Notes under the pieces: model-generated
The model's input: the letters and a program-made list of their open reading frames with translations, nothing else
Database searches by the model: none
What the model was told of the DNA's origin: nothing
Position numbers and translations under genes: made by a program
Shown: in pieces, positions 2,880 to 19,105 of the stretch
How the letters are laid out: each line of letters starts with the position of its first letter
Position numbering within the stretch: position 1 is the stretch's first letter
IMG/VR virus record: IMGVR_UViG_3300006752_000287
Location: 1-21,436 of that record
DNA length: 21,436 bases
Strand: one strand, 5' to 3'
DNA from: a virus

Positions 2880-3692
2880 ATGGCAACGGCAATCAAAATA
2901 GCAAACGTTGTCACAGGAGGAGCGGGCAACTCTATCGGAGGGGCGCAGCGCGGAGGCGCACCGTCACCACCTCCACCGCCTTTTACCTTTAAGGTAGACA
3001 CACGCAATGCGGGAGCGACAAGCAACACGCAATACAAGCTCCCCACAAACGCTAGTGGCACGTACAACTTCGTGGTTGATTGGGGCGATGGCAGCACGGA
3101 CACCATTACAGCATACAGACAATCTGAGGTAACGCATACGTACTCTACGGGTGGAGTATATACCATTACGATTACAGGGGACTTTACAACTATCAACCCC
3201 TTTCTTTCGGGAGACCCTCAAAAGATAACTGAGATTGTAAAGTGGGGAGGCACAAACCTCACCATCAACAACACCTTTGCTCTTAGGGGTTGTACGAATA
3301 TGATTTGCACCGCAACCGATTCCCCTACACTTACGGGTGATATTACAGGATGCTTTTATCAGTCGAACGCCATCACAAGCGGACTTGCGAATTGGGACTT
3401 CTCTAACGTAACGGCAGCTCAGTTCCTTTTGCTTTCCGTGCCCAATTGGAACGAAGACATCAGCAGTTGGGATGTATCAAACTGCACCACATTTAACGCT
3501 GCGTTCTCAGGAACGTCTATGAGCCAAGCCAACTATGATGCCCTATTGATTGCATGGTCTGCTCAAAGCGTTCAGAGCAATGTAGCATTTACCACGCCCG
3601 CTCAATACACGGCAGGAGGTGCGGCAGAGACCGCCCGCAACACCTTGGTTAACACATACAATTGGACAATTTCTGATGGCGGGGCGAACTAA
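2880..3692 (+). CDS. Adhesin-like protein with PKD and BspA/DUF285-type domains
   Basis: A 270-residue protein. Residues 1-30 are Gly/Ala-rich and end in a proline run (PSPPPPPF), a likely flexible linker. Residues 36-100 look like a PKD-type Ig domain, with VDWGDGSTDTI at about 66-76 and HTYSTGGVYTITITG at 86-100. Residues about 115-205 resemble the BspA/DUF285 leucine-rich-repeat family, with NWDFSNVT and the degenerate DISSWDVSNCTTF unit. The C-terminal MSQANYDALLIAW...YNWTISDGG is also typical of proteins of that kind. PKD and DUF285 domains are common in Bacteroidota surface adhesins, so a receptor-binding or glycan-binding phage fibre is a sensible inference. No enzyme motif is visible. 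Confidence 0.75.
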   Translation: MATAIKIANVVTGGAGNSIGGAQRGGAPSPPPPPFTFKVDTRNAGATSNTQYKLPTNASGTYNFVVDWGDGSTDTITAYRQSEVTHTYSTGGVYTITITGDFTTINPFLSGDPQKITEIVKWGGTNLTINNTFALRGCTNMICTATDSPTLTGDITGCFYQSNAITSGLANWDFSNVTAAQFLLLSVPNWNEDISSWDVSNCTTFNAAFSGTSMSQANYDALLIAWSAQSVQSNVAFTTPAQYTAGGAAETARNTLVNTYNWTISDGGAN

Positions 3693-12701: not shown

Positions 12702-14168
12702 ATGGCACTATCCGCTACACCGGGATTTGACCTCCAACCGAGTGCTCAACAGATTCCCGTCGAAAGTAATTACATCAAGGACTTCAACTTCTTGAATCAG
12801 TATCTCCCCGACACCTACGAAAAGGAGTTCGAGAGATACGGCAACAGAACCATCTCTTCCTTCCTCCGTATGGTGGGTGCTGAGATGCCTTCTAACTCTG
12901 ACCTCGTCAAGTGGGCAGAGCAGGGCAGACTGCACACCAAGTACACTCAGGTCGGAACAGCAGCCACTGCAGGTACTGATGCTGTGACTTTTCAGGTAAA
13001 TGACAACATCGCTCCCGGTGGAACTACTGCTTCTGCTACGGGTGGTATCGCGTTGAGAAACAATCAAACAATTATGATTGTCTTCAACAACGGTGCAGGC
13101 TCTAACAAGGCTATCGTTAGTGGAGTAAACACTACTGCAGGCACGTTTGTCGCCAACATCTACGAAGGTGGAGGTCTTGTGGCAAACGGAGCAGGCGCAG
13201 GTGAGTCTGACTGTACCATCTTCATCTACGGTTCTGAGTTCAACAAAGGAACTGCAGGTATGAGCGGCTCTCTCGAAGCTGACGACTTCATCTTCCAAAA
13301 CAAGCCTGTCATCTTGAAGGACACCTACACGGTGAACGGTTCTGATATGGCTCAGATTGGATGGGTTGAGGTGACTACTGAGAACGGAGCTACAGGATAC
13401 CTGTGGTACTTGAAGTCTGAGCATGAGACTCGCTTGCGTTTTGACGACTACCTCGAAACTGCTATGATTGAGGCTGTTCCTGCTGAACTTCTCTCAGGTG
13501 CAGGTGCTTACTTGCAAGATGTGACTGTCGCTAATGTACAGGCAGGTCTCAACGGTTCTGAAGGTATCTTCTACACTGTGAACCAAAGAGGTAACGTGTA
13601 CGCAGGTGGTAACCCCACTGTGCTTGCAGACTTCGACACTGTGATTCAGCGTCTCGACAAGCAGGGTTCTATCGAGGAGAACGTTCTCTTCATCAACCGT
13701 CAGTTCTCGTTCGACATCGACGATATGTTGGCTGCTCAAAACTCCTACGGAGCGGGTGGTACTTCATTCGGTCTGTTCGACAACGACGAAGAGATGGCCT
13801 TGAACCTTGGCTTCTCAGGATTCCGCAGAGGTTACGACTTCTACAAGACTGATTGGAAATACCTGAACGACCCAACCATGCGCGGTGGTCTGTCTACTGT
13901 GGCAGGCAGCGGTGCTGTGAACGGTCTTCTCGTTCCTGCAGGTTCTACTACCGTGTACGACCAAATCCTTGGTAAGAACGCGAAGCGTCCATTCTTGCAC
14001 GTTCGTTACAGAGCGTCTGAGACTGAAGACCGTCGCTACAAGACTTGGATTACAGGTTCTGCCGGAGGAGCTATGTACAGCGACATCGACCAAATGCAGG
14101 TTAACTACCTCTCTGAAAGATGTGTCTGCACCCTCGGTGCAAACAACTTCGTAATCTTCAATGCGTAA
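12702..14168 (+). CDS. Major capsid protein
   Basis: A 488-residue protein, expected to adopt the HK97 fold and form the capsid shell. It follows the scaffold gene after an A-rich leader and is followed by a strong hairpin, as for a very highly expressed product. N-terminal residues 22-82 (SNYIKDFNFLNQYLPDTYEK, then RTISSFLRMVGAEMP) would contain the N-arm and spine helix. Residues about 85-180 are Gly/Thr/Asn-rich beta sequence, probably an inserted surface domain. KGTAGMSGSLE...GSDMAQIGWVEVTTENG (182-229) and HETRLRFDDYLETAMIEAVP (241-260) are the best-conserved parts as I recall homologs. The size is close to that of crAss-like capsid proteins. No protease gene is adjacent. Confidence 0.88.
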   Translation: MALSATPGFDLQPSAQQIPVESNYIKDFNFLNQYLPDTYEKEFERYGNRTISSFLRMVGAEMPSNSDLVKWAEQGRLHTKYTQVGTAATAGTDAVTFQVNDNIAPGGTTASATGGIALRNNQTIMIVFNNGAGSNKAIVSGVNTTAGTFVANIYEGGGLVANGAGAGESDCTIFIYGSEFNKGTAGMSGSLEADDFIFQNKPVILKDTYTVNGSDMAQIGWVEVTTENGATGYLWYLKSEHETRLRFDDYLETAMIEAVPAELLSGAGAYLQDVTVANVQAGLNGSEGIFYTVNQRGNVYAGGNPTVLADFDTVIQRLDKQGSIEENVLFINRQFSFDIDDMLAAQNSYGAGGTSFGLFDNDEEMALNLGFSGFRRGYDFYKTDWKYLNDPTMRGGLSTVAGSGAVNGLLVPAGSTTVYDQILGKNAKRPFLHVRYRASETEDRRYKTWITGSAGGAMYSDIDQMQVNYLSERCVCTLGANNFVIFNA

Positions 14169-14249: not shown

Positions 14250-14999
14250 ATGAAGAAGACTGAACAGTACGTCGATAAGTCGTACAAGCTGACGCGGGAG
14301 GTAGCACCGCTTTCGTACATGCTGCCGACCCGCAACACACGTCGTATGCCGCTCTTGCACTTCGATGAAGAGACGGGCACGAACAGAGCGTTGCGCTATG
14401 CGCGTAACCAAAAATCCCCTTACGAGGAGGAGCAAGATGGCAACGCCATCGTTGAACCCATCATCTTTGAGGACGGCTTCCTTTATGTGGAGCGAAGCAA
14501 TCAGGTGCTTCAGCACTTCCTTAGTGTCCATCCTCTTTTCGGAAAGTCTTTCGCAGAGGTGAACAAGGAGAAGGACGCAGAAGCAGAGGTGGAGTTCTTG
14601 GCCCTCGAAGCTGATGCCCTTGCCGAGGCGCGTAGCCTGTCCTTGGAAGAAATGGAAAACGTTGTCCGCGTGGCCTACGGTCGAAGCACCGAACGTATGT
14701 CGTCTGCCGAGCTGAAGCGCGATGTCTTGGTGTTGGCTAAGAACGACCCTGAGACATTCCTAAACCTTATCCAAGACCCTGAGCTGAGGTTCTCCTCAAA
14801 CGTTCAGAAGTTCTTCGATGCAGGTTTCTTGAGCACTCGTCGCCAAGGCACGGAGGTGTGGTTTAGCACAGCGACCAACAAGAAGAAGATGCTTAGTGTC
14901 CCATTTGGGCTTGAGCCAACGCAAGCGGCTGCATCGTTCCTTAAGAGCGATGACGGAATTGAAGCGTTGAAGATGCTAGAGGCTCTACTTGAGGAGTAA
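14250..14999 (+). CDS. Conserved protein, probable virion or assembly factor
   Basis: A 249-residue acidic protein. Conserved-looking parts are APLSYMLPTRNTRRMPLLHF (19-38), NRALRYARNQKSPYEEEQDG (45-64), and a middle acidic helix EKDAEAEVEFLALEADALAE. A C-terminal part follows with FFDAGFLSTRRQG and a VWFSTATNKKKMLSVPFG turn. I remember similar proteins next to capsid genes in phages of Bacteroidota and in large marine phages, with no proven function. A winged-helix-like reading of the last 100 residues (helices, then a beta wing with KKKML) is possible but speculative. It stands alone between a hairpin and a terminator, so it may be expressed separately. Confidence 0.75.
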   Translation: MKKTEQYVDKSYKLTREVAPLSYMLPTRNTRRMPLLHFDEETGTNRALRYARNQKSPYEEEQDGNAIVEPIIFEDGFLYVERSNQVLQHFLSVHPLFGKSFAEVNKEKDAEAEVEFLALEADALAEARSLSLEEMENVVRVAYGRSTERMSSAELKRDVLVLAKNDPETFLNLIQDPELRFSSNVQKFFDAGFLSTRRQGTEVWFSTATNKKKMLSVPFGLEPTQAAASFLKSDDGIEALKMLEALLEE

Positions 15000-15020
15000 G
15001 CACTATTACCCGACAGGGGA

Positions 15021-15051
15021 AGAGAGGAGCAGAAATGCTCCTCTTTTTTTT
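15021..15051 (+). terminator. Rho-independent terminator
   Basis: AGAGGAGC (15023-15030) pairs perfectly with GCTCCTCT (15037-15044) around the loop AGAAAT, followed by a run of T to 15051. It ends the transcript of the 14250 gene. Only 4 bases separate it from the next promoter box. A near-copy lies at 17723-17751. Confidence 0.9.
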
Positions 15052-15055
15052 GCCC

Positions 15056-15063
15056 TATCTTTG
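15056..15063 (+). promoter_or_regulatory. Promoter element TATCTTTG for the paralog array
   Basis: A full TAnnTTTG match right after a terminator, so a new transcript must begin here for the genes downstream. Expected start is about 15067, leaving a leader of about 32 bases rich in T and A (GATATTTTTTTACTC) before ATG 15099. The sequence TATCTTTGTAG is identical to that at 17755-17765. Confidence 0.75.
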
Positions 15064-15098
15064 TAGGGATATTTTTTTACTCACGCAGAAATTTTTAC

Positions 15099-15473
15099 AT
15101 GCAGAAGTATATCAGAATTACGGGCCTCAACTCAGGCTCTTCTCAGTTCTTGGGGACGGGAATTTTTGGATGCACCGACATTGTTGGCATCTGCAGAGCG
15201 GGTGTCAATGCAGCTACTAATTCAGCCTTTGGAACTACAAGCACTGCTAATCAAACAAAAGTTGTTTACAAGGACGCAAACAGCAATGAGGCTGTTTCGG
15301 TAATCAATCACGCTTCTTCCTCGACCACGGCAGAGTCTGTGGCTATGGCTAACTACATCAAGGACTTAATTGTTCAGGCGTGGGAAGAGCCATACACAAA
15401 GCCATTTGTTACGATTAGCAAGTTTGATGCCCCACTAGAAATCACTAACATAAGCAAATCAGGACTTTCATAA
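15099..15473 (+). CDS. Array paralog 1 (small beta-rich virion-like protein)
   Basis: A 124-residue protein and first of nine tandem relatives. Family features: an N-terminal strand MQKYIRITGLNSG; a middle with DIVGICRAG and a KVVYKDA strand; a SVINHA segment, where other members have I(T/Q)..HA; a helix AESVAMANYIKDLIVQAW; and an end strand KPFVTISKFDAPLEITNIS. It is the longest member of the array, with an insert of about 15 residues after the IC strand. No signal peptide, membrane helix or catalytic motif. Abundance of short strands and position between capsid and tail genes suggest a virion decoration or fibre part (inference). It is the first gene after the 15056 promoter. Confidence 0.75.
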   Translation: MQKYIRITGLNSGSSQFLGTGIFGCTDIVGICRAGVNAATNSAFGTTSTANQTKVVYKDANSNEAVSVINHASSSTTAESVAMANYIKDLIVQAWEEPYTKPFVTISKFDAPLEITNISKSGLS

Positions 15474-15763
15474 TGGAAAAGTATTTACAATTCACGGACA
15501 GTGCGGGTCAGGAACACTTAGTTAGCCTGACTGACGTTGCTCAGGTCGATACGCGGACACCTGAAATCAATGACATCAAGTATTTCAACTATGAGATAAA
15601 TGGTGACGTAACCATCACTCATACTGCAGAAGACCCGACAACGGACAGGCAGTTTCAGAGATACTTTTTAGAGCAGATGAGGACAGCTCTCGCGTCTAAT
15701 TGGAACAAGCCCGTTCTTGTGTGCGAGCCTCCTGTAGCTATTGCCATTCAAGCAGTATTCTAA
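15473..15763 (+). CDS. Array paralog 2, 'GQ-H' subtype
   Basis: A 96-residue relative. It opens MEKYLQFTDSAGQEHLVSLT, where other members of this subtype have the pattern GQ(K)H.I.LT. A strand GDVTITHTAEDP is followed by a helix QFQRYFLEQMRTALASNWNK and the end KPVLVCEPPVAIAIQAVF. The 'M..(I/L).(S/T)(N/D)W' helix end and a following EPP(V/P).A segment unite it with the 16434 and 16742 products. Its ATG overlaps the stop of array paralog 1 (TAATG). Function unknown; see the array entry. Confidence 0.75.
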   Translation: MEKYLQFTDSAGQEHLVSLTDVAQVDTRTPEINDIKYFNYEINGDVTITHTAEDPTTDRQFQRYFLEQMRTALASNWNKPVLVCEPPVAIAIQAVF

Positions 15764-15768
15764 TTACC

Positions 15769-16110
15769 ATGAACAAGTACATTAAGATTACAGGTGTTCA
15801 AAATTCAGGGGGAACTATTCAGCGTGGAACCTTGCTTGTTCCGTGTCAAAACATTCTAAGTATATCGAAGGAAGACCCGCTCGCAGGGGATTATGACTCT
15901 ATCAAGATTAGGATGTTTGATTCAACTCTTAATTCTGATACGATTACTGTCCTTCATAAGGATACAACGGATGAGGCCGAGCATATCGCAGTAATCAATT
16001 TCCTGACGGAGAAAATTACTGAGGCACAGCAGCTTCCCTACGAAAAGCCCATGCTTGAGATTCCTGCTGACGGATTTCCTCTCGCTATTGAAAACGTTAC
16101 AATCGCATAA
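15769..16110 (+). CDS. Array paralog 3, 'PC-N' subtype
   Basis: A 113-residue relative. I chose ATG 15769 (ATTACC leader) because an upstream in-frame ATG at 15700 would overlap the previous gene by 64 bases and would destroy the family-type start MNKYIKITGVQNSG. Key parts: LLVPCQNILSISKED, a DSIKIRMFDS strand, DTITVLHKDTTDE, a helix HIAVINFLTEKITEAQQ, and the end EKPMLEIPADGFPLAIENVTIA. It matches the 16113 product most closely in its VPC.N and NVTIA motifs. No recognised domain. Confidence 0.75.
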   Translation: MNKYIKITGVQNSGGTIQRGTLLVPCQNILSISKEDPLAGDYDSIKIRMFDSTLNSDTITVLHKDTTDEAEHIAVINFLTEKITEAQQLPYEKPMLEIPADGFPLAIENVTIA

Positions 16111-16112
16111 TT

Positions 16113-16427
16113 ATGGGAAAGTTTATTTTAGTTACAGGTCTTGGAGCGTCTCCTGACAATCAGCTTATCCCGTGCGACAATGTTTTTATGGTGCTTAAAC
16201 AGGGAAGCCCCTTCAATGCCGTAAGGATTGATTACTTTGAATCTGACGGTTTGGGGGACAGACTTACAATCACGCACGCTACGGGTACAGCGGCAGAAAA
16301 TGTTACCATGTGCAACTTTATTGCCAACCTTATCCTAAAGGCAAAGCAGCAAAAGCATGGTAAGCCGTATCTCGAAATTGATGCGGCTGACTTCCCGTCT
16401 GCTGTAACGAACGTAACCATAGCTTAA
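16113..16427 (+). CDS. Array paralog 4, 'PC-N' subtype
   Basis: A 104-residue relative: MGKFILVTGLGASPDNQLIP, then CDNVFMVLKQG, a strand AVRIDYFESDG, DRLTITHATGTAAENV, a helix TMCNFIANLILKAKQQKHGK and the end KPYLEIDAADFPSAVTNVTIA. The order strand - PCDN - strand - THA - helix - KP.LEI - NVTIA is the clearest statement of the family pattern in this array. It begins 2 bases after the previous stop. No catalytic or membrane features; a repeated virion subunit is the simplest guess. Confidence 0.75.
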   Translation: MGKFILVTGLGASPDNQLIPCDNVFMVLKQGSPFNAVRIDYFESDGLGDRLTITHATGTAAENVTMCNFIANLILKAKQQKHGKPYLEIDAADFPSAVTNVTIA

Positions 16428-16433
16428 GAAAAT

Positions 16434-16730
16434 ATGGACAAGTATCTTATCATTACAGACAATTCAGGGCAGAAGCACAGCATCGACCTTACAAGGATTG
16501 GAGCGTTTGCATTTACCACAACAACGCTTTCCGTCAGGTATACCACTACGGTGGGCGAGGATGCGGTAGCAATTCAAGTCAATCACGCCACAGCTCCCAC
16601 ATCCTATGCCTTCAAGGATTGGTTTATTGGAGAGATGGAGCGCATCATGTCAAGCAATTGGAGAGAGGTGGCTGATGAGCCTACACCTCCTTACGCTGTG
16701 AGCACATTGTCCAAGCTCGTTGTTACGTAA
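16434..16730 (+). CDS. Array paralog 5, 'GQ-H' subtype
   Basis: A 98-residue relative that begins MDKYLIITDNSGQKHSIDLT, very like the next protein (SDGQKHNIELTRI). It goes on with TLSVRYTTTVGEDAVAIQVNHA, a helix YAFKDWFIGEMERIMSSNW and REVADEPTPPYAVSTL. The segments MERI(M/L)....W and V(A/S)DEPTPPYAV are shared almost exactly with the 16742 product, so these two are the most recent duplicates in the array. It has an A-rich 6-base leader, GAAAAT, before the ATG region. Function unknown. Confidence 0.75.
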   Translation: MDKYLIITDNSGQKHSIDLTRIGAFAFTTTTLSVRYTTTVGEDAVAIQVNHATAPTSYAFKDWFIGEMERIMSSNWREVADEPTPPYAVSTLSKLVVT

Positions 16731-16741
16731 AAAAAGAAGCA

Positions 16742-17038
16742 ATGGAAAAGTATATGACCATCACCTCATCTGACGGGCAGAAGCACAACATCGAACTTAC
16801 AAGGATTTTTCTTGTTCAAACGAACAGCACGGGTACTCCGGGGACACAGCTAATCATTGATTATCTAGGTGTTAAAGGAGGCGGTACCCCTCGCATAACA
16901 ATCACTCACGAAGCTGTAAGCCCAATCTATGAGTTCAAGGTTTGGTTTGTGGACGAGATGGAGCGTATCCTAGCGACAGATTGGAAGACAGTATCTGATG
17001 AACCCACTCCGCCCTACGCGGTAACAACGATTGCATAA
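16742..17038 (+). CDS. Array paralog 6, 'GQ-H' subtype with TTIA end
   Basis: A 98-residue relative: MEKYMTITSSDGQKHNIELT, then RIFLVQTNS, QLIIDYLGVKGGG, RITITHEAVSPIYEFK, a helix VWFVDEMERILATDWKTV and SDEPTPPYAVTTIA. The body belongs with the 16434 product, yet the last residues (VTTIA) recall the NVTIA end of the other subtype, so exchange between the subtypes may have happened. The leader AAAAAAAGAAGCA before ATG is A-rich, as is usual in Bacteroidota. Function unknown. Confidence 0.75.
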   Translation: MEKYMTITSSDGQKHNIELTRIFLVQTNSTGTPGTQLIIDYLGVKGGGTPRITITHEAVSPIYEFKVWFVDEMERILATDWKTVSDEPTPPYAVTTIA

Positions 17039-17039
17039 G

Positions 17040-17423
17040 ATGAGCGATTACAAATACATCAAGTTCACTGACCTGACTCCTATTCAGGGTCAAACTGAAA
17101 GAATCTTTCCGTTGTTTGGATTGAAGCGCGTGCTATACAACAACTCCACTCCATTCACCAACTTGAAGATTGAACTCGTTTTGGCAAACCAAAATGAGGA
17201 TACTGTGCAGATTGAAGTTCGGGGTGTAGACGGCAACCAATTCACGGATACGGGAACTCCCGGAACAAATGATGAGGCCGCTTACATTGCGTTCTGTAAC
17301 GAGGTTCTCGATTACTACTTTAGTTTGACATCGACAAGTAAGGTACTTACCACGGTAAAGGCGGGTGAGAATGGAGATATTGCTCCCACCCTTGGTCGAA
17401 TCACGCAAGTCTCAATCGCATAA
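17040..17423 (+). CDS. Array paralog 7, longer divergent member
   Basis: A 127-residue relative. ATG 17040 was chosen over 17031 because it gives the family start MSDYKYIKFTDLTPIQG and lies one base after the preceding stop. It continues with RIFPLFGLKRVLYN, LKIELVLANQNEDTVQIEV, a 15-residue insert (GVDGNQFTDTG), a helix EAAYIAFCNEVLDYYFSL and an end LGRITQVSIA. The V(T/S)IA ending and the KYI.(I/F)T start keep it in the family despite weak similarity in between. Function unknown. Confidence 0.72.
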   Translation: MSDYKYIKFTDLTPIQGQTERIFPLFGLKRVLYNNSTPFTNLKIELVLANQNEDTVQIEVRGVDGNQFTDTGTPGTNDEAAYIAFCNEVLDYYFSLTSTSKVLTTVKAGENGDIAPTLGRITQVSIA

Positions 17424-17425
17424 CT

Positions 17426-17701
17426 ATGTTTACAAACGAAAAATACATGTACTTCACTAGCCCCACCACGGGCAAGAGGTTCTACTTCAGGGTTAGCAAT
17501 ACCATCAACATTAGACAAAATACTGCTACTGAGGTTATTGTTTATTCTACCACAGCGGAGCAGGGTAACGTGCGTCTTGTTTCTACCAACAACACTGCAG
17601 CCTCAAAGTTGGTTGACCAAATGATTCCGTTTTTATCGACTCCATACACTGAGACCTTAAGAGAGGTTGTCTTCGATGGATTTGAGCTGACATTGGGCTA
17701 A
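17426..17701 (+). CDS. Array paralog 8, divergent short member
   Basis: A 91-residue relative and the last gene before the second terminator: MFTNEKYMYFTSPTTGKRFY, then a RVSNTINIRQN strand, EVIVYSTTAEQGNVRLVSTN, a helix AASKLVDQMIPFLS and REVVFDGFELTLG. EKYMYFTSPTTGK.F matches the KY...T...G..h start of the array, and the strand-helix-strand order is kept, though the 'THA' and NVTIA signatures have been lost. Starts 2 bases after the previous stop. Function unknown. Confidence 0.7.
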   Translation: MFTNEKYMYFTSPTTGKRFYFRVSNTINIRQNTATEVIVYSTTAEQGNVRLVSTNNTAASKLVDQMIPFLSTPYTETLREVVFDGFELTLG

Positions 17702-17722
17702 CACCTGTATCCTACTACAGAA

Positions 17723-17751
17723 AGAGAGGGGCAATAGCCCCTCTTTTTTTT
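17723..17751 (+). terminator. Rho-independent terminator
   Basis: AGAGGGGC (17725-17732) pairs perfectly with GCCCCTCT (17737-17744) around the loop AATA, followed by T through 17751. It closes the transcript of the eight-gene array block. Stem, T-run and the promoter just downstream copy the arrangement at 15021-15066. Confidence 0.92.
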
Positions 17752-17754
17752 GGC

Positions 17755-17762
17755 TATCTTTG
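17755..17762 (+). promoter_or_regulatory. Promoter element TATCTTTG, likely leaderless start
   Basis: A full TAnnTTTG match 3 bases after the terminator T-run. Only TAGC lies between the box and ATG 17767, the same 4-base spacing seen at 1152-1164. With the usual start a few bases after the box, the mRNA would begin at or next to the ATG. Confidence 0.75.
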
Positions 17763-17766
17763 TAGC

Positions 17767-18090
17767 ATGAACGGGCTTCTTAGAATACAGAGTACATCTT
17801 CATCTGACCTGTACATACCTGTGGACTCTATCAAGAGCGTTTCGCGAACGGCAGCCGCACAGATAACCATTGTCACAGACCCTGTCTCTCCTGATAGAAC
17901 AGGCAGCTACAACGCTCCGTCGTATCAGCTTACCGAAGGTGGCACAGGGGCAGGCGAGTTCGATGAAACCAATGTGCAGGCGATTATTGATGCGTGGAGT
18001 TCTGTTCTTCGAGGACAGCAAGCTGTAGCTACGGTAAACTTTAGCTTCCCCGTCGATAGGTTTAGCAAGGCTATGGTTGCTTGGCCTTAA
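17767..18090 (+). CDS. Array paralog 9, outside the terminator pair
   Basis: A 107-residue protein: MNGLLRIQSTSSSDLYIPVD, then SIKSVSRTAAAQITIVTDP, a Gly/Tyr-rich loop (GSYNAPSYQLTEGGTGAGEF), a helix TNVQAIIDAWSSVLRGQ and VATVNFSFPVDRF. YIPVDSIKSV aligns with LIPCDNVFMV of the 16113 product, and the strand-loop-helix-strand order is that of the array, so I treat it as a distant ninth member. It has its own terminator/promoter cassette upstream, with a probable leaderless start. Role unknown; separate control suggests a different dose from the other eight. Confidence 0.68.
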   Translation: MNGLLRIQSTSSSDLYIPVDSIKSVSRTAAAQITIVTDPVSPDRTGSYNAPSYQLTEGGTGAGEFDETNVQAIIDAWSSVLRGQQAVATVNFSFPVDRFSKAMVAWP

Positions 18091-18111: not shown

Positions 18112-18119
18112 TATCTTTG
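18112..18119 (+). promoter_or_regulatory. Promoter element TATCTTTG for connector/tail genes
   Basis: A full TAnnTTTG match in the 43-base gap before ATG 18134; the expected start is about 18123. The inverted repeat TTGCCT/AGGCAA (18117-18122 and 18129-18134) overlaps the box end and the A of the start codon and could be a small operator, although 6-bp repeats also occur by chance. Confidence 0.7.
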
Positions 18120-18133
18120 CCTAAAACAAGGCA

Positions 18134-19105
18134 ATGATTAACTCAGTCAGACAATCTGTGCTGTCTGTGCTAAACAAGAATAACTACGGTTATCTCTCCC
18201 CTGCTGACTTCAACCTATTTGCAAAGCAGGCACAGCTAGATATCTTCGAGAGTTATTTTTATCAGTACAACAATCAGATAAACAAGGAGAATGCTCGTCA
18301 GTCAGGTACGGGCATTGCTAACTTGTCGAAGAGTATTGAGGAGTCAATGGACTTGTTTTCTGTGACTCGTGGCCTCAACCTTGATGCCACCACAGCGGGT
18401 CAGTACCTGATGCCATCGGCAGCCACGACAGGTAGCGACTACTACCTTGTCAACAAGGTACTTGTGTATAAGGGTATTGTAACCTCAGGTCAACAAGGAG
18501 GTGCGCCTTCCGGTGCAACTACATTTTTTGGAGATGTTACCGCTACTTTTATTTCTGACGGTGTTATTCCGGGAGACATTATCGCTCTCGAAACATCAAC
18601 ACAGGGTGTTCAATATCGCACTATTGCAGTCGTGCCTACAGAGATTGATTTGACACTTTCATCTTCTTTTGAATCTGCTTCACCTATAGCTTACAGTATA
18701 TTCAGAGCAGGGACTCAACAGAACGAGGCGGAGAAGGTGACGCATAGCAAGATTACTATGCTCAACAACTCCATCTACACCGCTCCTACGCTTGAGTACC
18801 CTGCGTATACCTCGGAGGAGACCTCTATGCAGGTGTTCCCAAGCACCAACATGACAGCGGGTAGGGTAGTGGCACAATACTTTAGATATCCTAAAGACCC
18901 GAATTGGACTTATTTCACCCTTACGGGAGGTGAGCCTGTGTTCAACCAAACAGCGGTTGACTTCCAAGATTTTGAAGTGCCGCTTGATGATGAGAACAAC
19001 CTCACCATGAAGATTCTGCAGTACGCAGGCATTACGATTAGAGAGCCTGAAGTCTTTGGCTTTGCTACGGGTGAAGAAACCAAGGAGCAACAACAAGAAG
19101 GATAA
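18134..19105 (+). CDS. Head-tail connector or tail structural protein
   Basis: A 323-residue protein. The N-terminal part (1-80) is helical, with NKNNYGYLSPADFNLFAKQA then QLDIFESYFYQYN. Residues 102-120 (DYYLVNKVLVYKG) and 195-323 make up the rest of the core, including EKVTHSKITMLNNSIYTAP, VVAQYFRYPKDPNWTY and GGEPVFNQTAVDFQDFEVPL. Between them, about 131-191, lies a module with ATFISDGVIPGDII, also present in the 1331 product, which looks inserted. The C-terminus is Glu/Gln-rich. I recall homologs in phages of Bacteroidota at the same position; an adaptor or ring role is inferred from the order portal, capsid, this gene, tail genes. No enzymatic motif. Confidence 0.72.
   Translation: MINSVRQSVLSVLNKNNYGYLSPADFNLFAKQAQLDIFESYFYQYNNQINKENARQSGTGIANLSKSIEESMDLFSVTRGLNLDATTAGQYLMPSAATTGSDYYLVNKVLVYKGIVTSGQQGGAPSGATTFFGDVTATFISDGVIPGDIIALETSTQGVQYRTIAVVPTEIDLTLSSSFESASPIAYSIFRAGTQQNEAEKVTHSKITMLNNSIYTAPTLEYPAYTSEETSMQVFPSTNMTAGRVVAQYFRYPKDPNWTYFTLTGGEPVFNQTAVDFQDFEVPLDDENNLTMKILQYAGITIREPEVFGFATGEETKEQQQEG

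Follow-up and report, generated by a model that had tools for sequence, protein, structure and literature searches.

Polymorphic accessory loci and decoration proteins are already known kinds of phage components. The internal proteins (ip) of T-even phages are encoded at fixed loci, are small, non-essential, highly diverse and interchangeable, occur several per phage, and block specific type IV restriction enzymes (PMC12373910, PMC3012670). Decoration proteins such as Hoc, Soc, gpD, Dec and pb10 are small and beta-rich, are encoded in the head region, and many of them are dispensable (PMC7602432). Among distantly related phages of Bacteroidota, crAss001 carries gp36 and the head fibres gp21 and gp29 as accessory proteins of the outer capsid, with gp36 encoded downstream of the major capsid protein (MCP) (PMC10172136). 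Here we describe a locus that shares traits with all of these, a tandem array of nine small paralogous genes at positions 15099-18090 of IMG/VR record IMGVR_UViG_3300006752_000287. The record is 21,436 bases long and covers part of a single phage genome; it was analysed in full and is called the window below. This array almost certainly fills a dedicated cassette-exchange slot, in the most expanded form that we found; the slot is now defined by its fixed place, its series of copy numbers, the swapping of its alleles and its separate promoters. The slot proteins probably vary the exterior of the particle or counter host defences.

The slot, its copies and their exchange

The slot lies between two conserved genes, g249 and g323, and its nine genes (W1 to W9) were each identified by open reading frame (ORF), profile hidden Markov model (HMM) and tree, with other evidence named where it was used. 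The features of the region, all on the forward strand, are:

12702-14168, forward: presumed MCP, from a match to phrog_13704 (virion structural protein) and gene order; the anchor for collecting relatives
14250-14999, forward: g249, conserved left border of the slot, from gene order and homologs in relatives
15019-15051, forward: terminator-like hairpin and T run after g249, before the slot (-19.8 kcal/mol, z -4.5)
15056-15063, forward: TATCTTTG, presumed Bacteroidota-type -7 promoter element before W1, from a motif scan
15099-15473, forward: W1, A-type, 124 residues
15473-15763, forward: W2, B-type, 96 residues
15769-16110, forward: W3, A-type, 113 residues
16113-16427, forward: W4, A-type, 104 residues (also AlphaFold2)
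16434-16730, forward: W5, B-type, 98 residues
16742-17038, forward: W6, B-type, 98 residues
17040-17423, forward: W7, 127 residues, the most diverged member (also hhalign)
17426-17701, forward: W8, 91 residues
17719-17751, forward: terminator-like hairpin and T run after W8 (-21.5 kcal/mol, z -5.4)
17755-17762, forward: TATCTTTG, presumed promoter element before W9, from a motif scan
17767-18090, forward: W9, 107 residues, its own transcription unit (also hhalign)
18112-18119, forward: TATCTTTG, presumed promoter element before g323, from a motif scan
18134-19105, forward: g323, conserved right border of the slot, ring-like, virion structural protein (phrog_14543)

Relatives were collected as 80 IMG/VR loci through the MCP and about 110 or more new contigs through family members, about 190 in total (handles beginning with L). 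As single queries the slot proteins of the window reach almost only the same phage, and the family emerged by anchoring on the MCP. In a scan blind to position, family members lay only between the g249 and g323 homologs in 80 of 80 loci, a few contigs being cut on one side; two further scans placed 88 of 88 copies there, and near-complete contigs held no copy outside the slot.

The count of array sizes in related phages, which the original prediction had proposed, gave 0, 1, 2, 3, 5 or 9 copies. Among the 65 spanning MCP-anchored contigs, the window included, 21 had no copy, 28 had one, 10 had two, one had three, one had five and four had nine. The window holds the largest set found, arranged as A B A A B B 7 8 9. 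Once contigs found through slot genes are counted too, seven carry complete nine-gene arrays, all in this order and with largely positional orthology. Smaller sets consist of a W9-type gene alone (L185-L188), of one other gene with W9 (L018, L190), or of five genes arranged as A, B, 7, 8, 9 (L184). These one-, two-, five- and nine-gene states and their orders agree with an array that grew as its A and B members were duplicated. The second gene of the five-gene array in L016/L182 (L182 5032-5229) looks truncated at its start relative to the intact copy in L184, and may be a pseudogene or an assembly error.

The family profile found nothing in five named relatives, the uncultured podovirus MW202828, elemo, phi38:1, Panino and phi18:3. 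In MW202828, elemo and phi38:1, a gene of about 249 codons after the MCP adjoins the next virion gene, with no array between them. Unrelated small ORFs occupy the place of the slot in Cellulophaga phage phi18:3 (L005 11398-13180, minus strand) and in Maribacter phage Panino (L002 20000-21103); in these more distant relatives other accessory genes, too, seem able to settle there.

Exchange of the slot content is most apparent among sister phages. Compared with its nearest relatives L174, L176 and L178, the window has an MCP and g249 of 91-96% amino acid identity at a synonymous divergence (dS) of about 0.2, and slot genes of only 37-72% identity, with dS from 1.2 to saturation; the intergenic terminator-promoter stretches of the same region are 91-99% identical. 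Against the more distant L058 (MCP 77%), eight slot genes show 29-60% and W9 63% identity, whereas most other genes show 71-97%; few genes outside the slot fall below 70%, one fibre-like gene at 1870 among them. The exchanged units range from blocks to single genes. Between L176 and L178, a block with sharp edges, which begins close to the start of position 3 and ends with the position 8 stop codon, is 57-88% identical, amid flanks of 98-100%. In the pair L176 and L179, the MCP, g249, g323 and positions 1-6 and 9 are identical, and positions 7 and 8 match at 75-77%. L034 and L103 share the same MCP over the compared parts and a 97.6% similar g249, but their slot proteins have no detectable similarity: the DNA similarity ends about 15 bases into the slot gene and picks up again some six bases short of its end. 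One gene, cut at its edges, is present in only one of L021 and L027. Swaps were thus seen between phages with identical MCP over the compared parts. Among pairs with g249 at least 88% identical, 93 of 386 (non-independent pairs) have unequal copy numbers or one or more slot proteins of less than 60% identity.

Wherever dS is measurable, the ratio of nonsynonymous divergence (dN) to dS in slot genes is about 0.1-0.5, which indicates purifying selection and gives no demonstration of rapid positive selection. Because dS and dN are both raised at this ratio, what is exchanged must be old, functional alleles. Every complete nine-gene array that was read out has all nine of its reading frames intact. 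Assembly chimerism was considered as a cause, but random chimeras would not give shared swapped blocks: the independent contigs L171 and L179 share positions 2 and 4-8 and differ at 9. Near-identical sisters carrying different alleles, blocks, unrelated subfamilies or no slot gene at all, with the changes edged at the slot genes themselves, argue for a cassette-exchange locus of dispensable accessory proteins.

The edges of the exchanged region carry candidate signals for transcription. TATCTTTG, which we take to be the Bacteroidota -7 promoter element, occurs four times in the window, always intergenic and forward (5005, 15056, 17755 and 18112), a number that 0 of 100 shuffles reach. Over the full length of the window the looser TANNTTTG is not enriched, but its placement is informative: the 90 bases preceding the first slot gene contain it in 87 of 95 loci and those preceding g323 in 55 of 55, compared with 0 of 86 for the MCP, 6 of 96 for g309, 19 of 107 for g249 and 1 of 44 for later slot genes. 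Relatives with slot genes of 52-57% identity match the window at 96-99% over the stretch 15000-15098. Given this placement and the terminator-like hairpins before W1 and W9, the slot probably forms its own transcription unit, the strength and timing of whose expression we infer. The array itself is not a single unit, with a terminator and a promoter-like site directly before W9.

Some details of the original prediction could be refined. Nine intact forward ORFs of 91-127 residues are present, the third starting at 15769, and they do lie between capsid and tail genes, with the MCP and g249 upstream and g323 and g309 downstream. The opening KY(I/L).(I/F)T, which all nine were said to share, survives as K(Y/F) near the N-terminus in eight of the nine; the ninth begins MNGLLRI. 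The interleaved subtypes are real in the tree, where positions 1, 3 and 4 form the A-type and 2, 5 and 6 the B-type, followed by 7, 8 and 9.

Family unity was assessed with leave-one-position-out profile HMMs against 2,000 shuffled decoys, the best of which scored 9-12 bits. All nine positions outscore every decoy, with 50-73 bits for positions 1-6, 25-52 for 8 and 9, and 16-21 for 7, and hhalign aligns positions 7 and 9 to the family at E values of 2.8e-7 and 1.8e-7. By these comparisons the nine diverged paralogs are one family, of which the seventh is the weakest member. In a tree of 76 proteins, the members of six arrays fall into single, well supported groups at positions 1, 2, 7, 8 and 9; grouping is weak at 3 and 4, and at 5 and 6 only the window's proteins are mixed up. 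The nine positional groups together require 9 changes on the tree, where the minimum possible is 8 and shuffles need 39.5. The alignment is short in columns, so that finer branching is not trustworthy.

The AlphaFold2 model of W4 is compact, with five strands, a helix and two strands (predicted local distance difference test score, pLDDT, 87.7); the model of W7 from its eight orthologs is of low confidence (pLDDT 36.6). Foldseek matched the W4 fold in BFVD only to uncharacterised proteins of uncultured viruses, including A0A516LYE6, A0A516LU06 and A0A516LU00 (E down to 3e-7, template modelling score 0.75-0.78). Some of these matches are parts of longer proteins of 174-546 residues. As their predicted fold matches W4, these proteins are probable family members. 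Solved structures gave no convincing or significant fold match to W4, and a PH-like fold is not claimed, the best Z of 5.5 lying under the tool's stated noise level.

The claim that the set has no described function holds for the libraries searched. Singly, the nine proteins have no significant match in PHROGs or Pfam, and 50 family members as a group have none in PHROGs, Pfam, NCBIfam or PDB sequences; the best Pfam, PHROGs and NCBIfam matches are weak, scattered and never common to members. Neither a tblastn search of named phages with two single-copy members (nothing at E 1), nor a search of GTDB genome contigs with one family member as query, nor a literature search revealed a relative or a paper describing the family.

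Possible roles of the slot proteins

Our best functional guess, to which we give a probability of about 0.45, is that the slot products are variable surface components of the virion. The copies would have arisen by tandem duplication, and the paralogs would have taken separate roles, judging from positional orthology. The conserved flanks would allow homologous recombination in mixed infections to reshuffle the copies; the terminator-like and promoter-like sites are kept, while the coding sequences are replaced by diverged alleles, array blocks or other subfamilies. Less surely, the products would be late-expressed, dispensable and exposed parts of the virion, such as small decorations or fibre or adhesin subunits. 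Reshuffling would then alter the outer surface that meets hosts, and nine genes could yield a mosaic surface with partly exchangeable subunits. More tentative is a truly combinatorial surface, in which nine ordered subunits, a pool of alleles per position and recombination between promoter and terminator edges would make coats differ between near-identical capsids.

A surface role draws support from the position of the slot inside the virion morphogenesis module, and from the composition of its proteins, which are acidic (median isoelectric point (pI) 4.7), lysine-poor and threonine-rich, like the MCP and g323. A slot protein of 280 residues in L084 (11017-11859) holds two copies of a g323-type domain, which is also found in YQKLQ proteins matching a tail fiber PHROG and in residues 105-190 of g323. 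Dispensability, as in many decoration proteins, was counted in favour as well. Variation in the MCP peaks at residues 81-200 and around 261-290, and the first of these patches falls where the MCP of crAss001 has its exposed I-domain, residues 79-180 (PMC10172136). Several points weigh on the other side. The correspondence between variable patch and I-domain is positional only, as the two MCP sequences do not align. Slot content changes without a change of the MCP (L034 and L103; L021 and L027), and thus shows no specific fit to the capsid allele; a coupling of slot alleles to MCP surface alleles was looked for and not found. The domain link comes from the single L084 protein, the slot family has no similarity to crAss001 gp36 (hhalign probability 0.3 percent), and swappable small-gene slots of phages also carry counter-defence genes. 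The reservoir of alternative host-binding subunits that the original prediction had considered is a conjecture that agrees with the exchange of alleles between sister phages, as would be expected at a variable locus of host interaction.

In the main rival reading, by analogy with the T-even ip loci, the products would be packaged and injected counter-defence proteins that reach the cell together with the DNA and inhibit proteins of host defence, with the variety of host defences driving both swapping and copy number. The slot is likewise dispensable, allelically diverse and multiple, and its content is independent of the capsid allele. We nevertheless consider this somewhat unlikely: ip proteins share a processed N-terminal signal only, whereas the similarity of slot proteins spans the whole protein and, in the W4 model, the N-terminus forms a core strand. 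Moreover, basic proteins would be expected amid DNA, and this family is acidic; PADLOC, whose library covers defence proteins and not inhibitors, gave no match of note. Accessory proteins outside the virion, expressed late from their own promoters for intracellular counter-defence, superinfection exclusion or host take-over and placed here by flanking homology, would agree with the promoters and terminators, the dispensability and swapping, and the missing tie to the MCP allele. The strict placement within the virion module in all loci, the virion-like composition and the L084 domain common to virion proteins make this unlikely.

The hetero-oligomeric surface raised by the original prediction, with each paralog in a distinct place, fares less well in its obligatory form, as a collar, neck or capsomer ring. 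Shared order and largely positional orthology in the seven nine-gene contigs do fit distinct roles. However, relatives with 95-99% similar g249 have 0, 1, 2 or 5 copies between the same flanking genes, the five named relatives have none, and positions are swapped singly or in blocks. Since close relatives lack the genes altogether, an obligatory collar or capsomer part is very unlikely. Neutral drift of a non-functional or barely functional family, duplicating and recombining as flanking homology permits, would account for the widely varying copy number and the common zero-copy phages, yet it appears extremely improbable in view of the purifying selection, the intact frames and the conserved promoters described above.

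The phage, its probable host and neighbouring genes

PHROG matches in the window cover the terminase, the portal, the presumed MCP and two downstream virion genes. The nearest named phage is MW202828 (portal 75%, MCP 65% identity), and by the same two proteins Maribacter phage Panino, the Flavobacterium elemo phages and Cellulophaga phages such as phi38:1 and phi18:3 are also near. These relationships make a marine or aquatic bacterium of the Bacteroidota the probable host; the window phage belongs to a tailed-phage group with cultured relatives on marine Bacteroidota.

Profile comparison with crAss001 gave weak matches of g249 to gp33 (E 1.8e-4, probability 48%) and of g323 to the ring protein gp34 (E 4e-4, probability 35%), both resting partly on gene order, and found no counterpart of the MCP and g309 among its proteins. 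Solved structures yielded no trusted match for the MCP and its neighbours, and no Rfam families or tRNAs were found in the region. The two variable patches of the MCP (residues about 81-200 and about 261-290; window 12940-13570) are sharply bounded, and the rest of the protein is conserved. In g323, residues 105-190 form a variable, beta-rich inserted domain, a mobile virion domain.

A second, smaller tandem set lies at 1331-2878, where three consecutive paralogs of 175, 172 and 162 residues open with YQKLQ.GR. They match phrog_12296 (tail fiber protein) and have a relative in MW202828; their identities to L058 are 72, 56 and 86%, the middle one being unusually diverged too. Upstream, at 45-983, lie small genes, two of which (45-287 and 693-983) encode very basic products (pI about 10.5) with weak matches to DUF5872 and DUF5754 and 91-97% identity in L058. 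The protein encoded at 2880-3692 has PKD and DUF285 (BspA-like) matches and is a possible surface or adhesion module.

Comparison with known systems

The slot is present in well over a hundred contigs of a common virus group that probably infects marine Bacteroidota, and no known family covers its proteins. From its copy series of 0, 1, 2, 5 and 9 one can read how a tandem array expands and its positions specialise. Sister phages that diverge in the slot are natural experiments, in which the exchange of small paralogs as surface subunits or as counter-defence proteins becomes directly testable. If the combinatorial surface were true, it would let a phage vary its surface by recombination, with neither a diversity-generating retroelement nor phase variation involved.

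Nothing in the papers searched describes a family of as many as nine paralogs in set order whose blocks are swapped between conserved promoter and terminator edges within a virion module. Homology to crAss001 gp36 was rejected on the profile comparison; that protein has 333 residues with PH-like and FliD-like domains. Decoration proteins resemble the slot proteins in size, gene location and frequent dispensability, but usually number one or two per phage and do not form swapped arrays. Solved decoration proteins gave no PDB sequence match and no significant fold match to the slot family, which does not exclude such a fold. The T-even ip loci are the best-known loci that behave alike, and the slot proteins may, by analogy, work in a like manner. 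The ip proteins, otherwise dissimilar, have in common an N-terminal capsid-targeting signal, a pattern that the slot proteins do not follow; theirs is a whole-protein family, acidic, with up to nine members in a fixed order.

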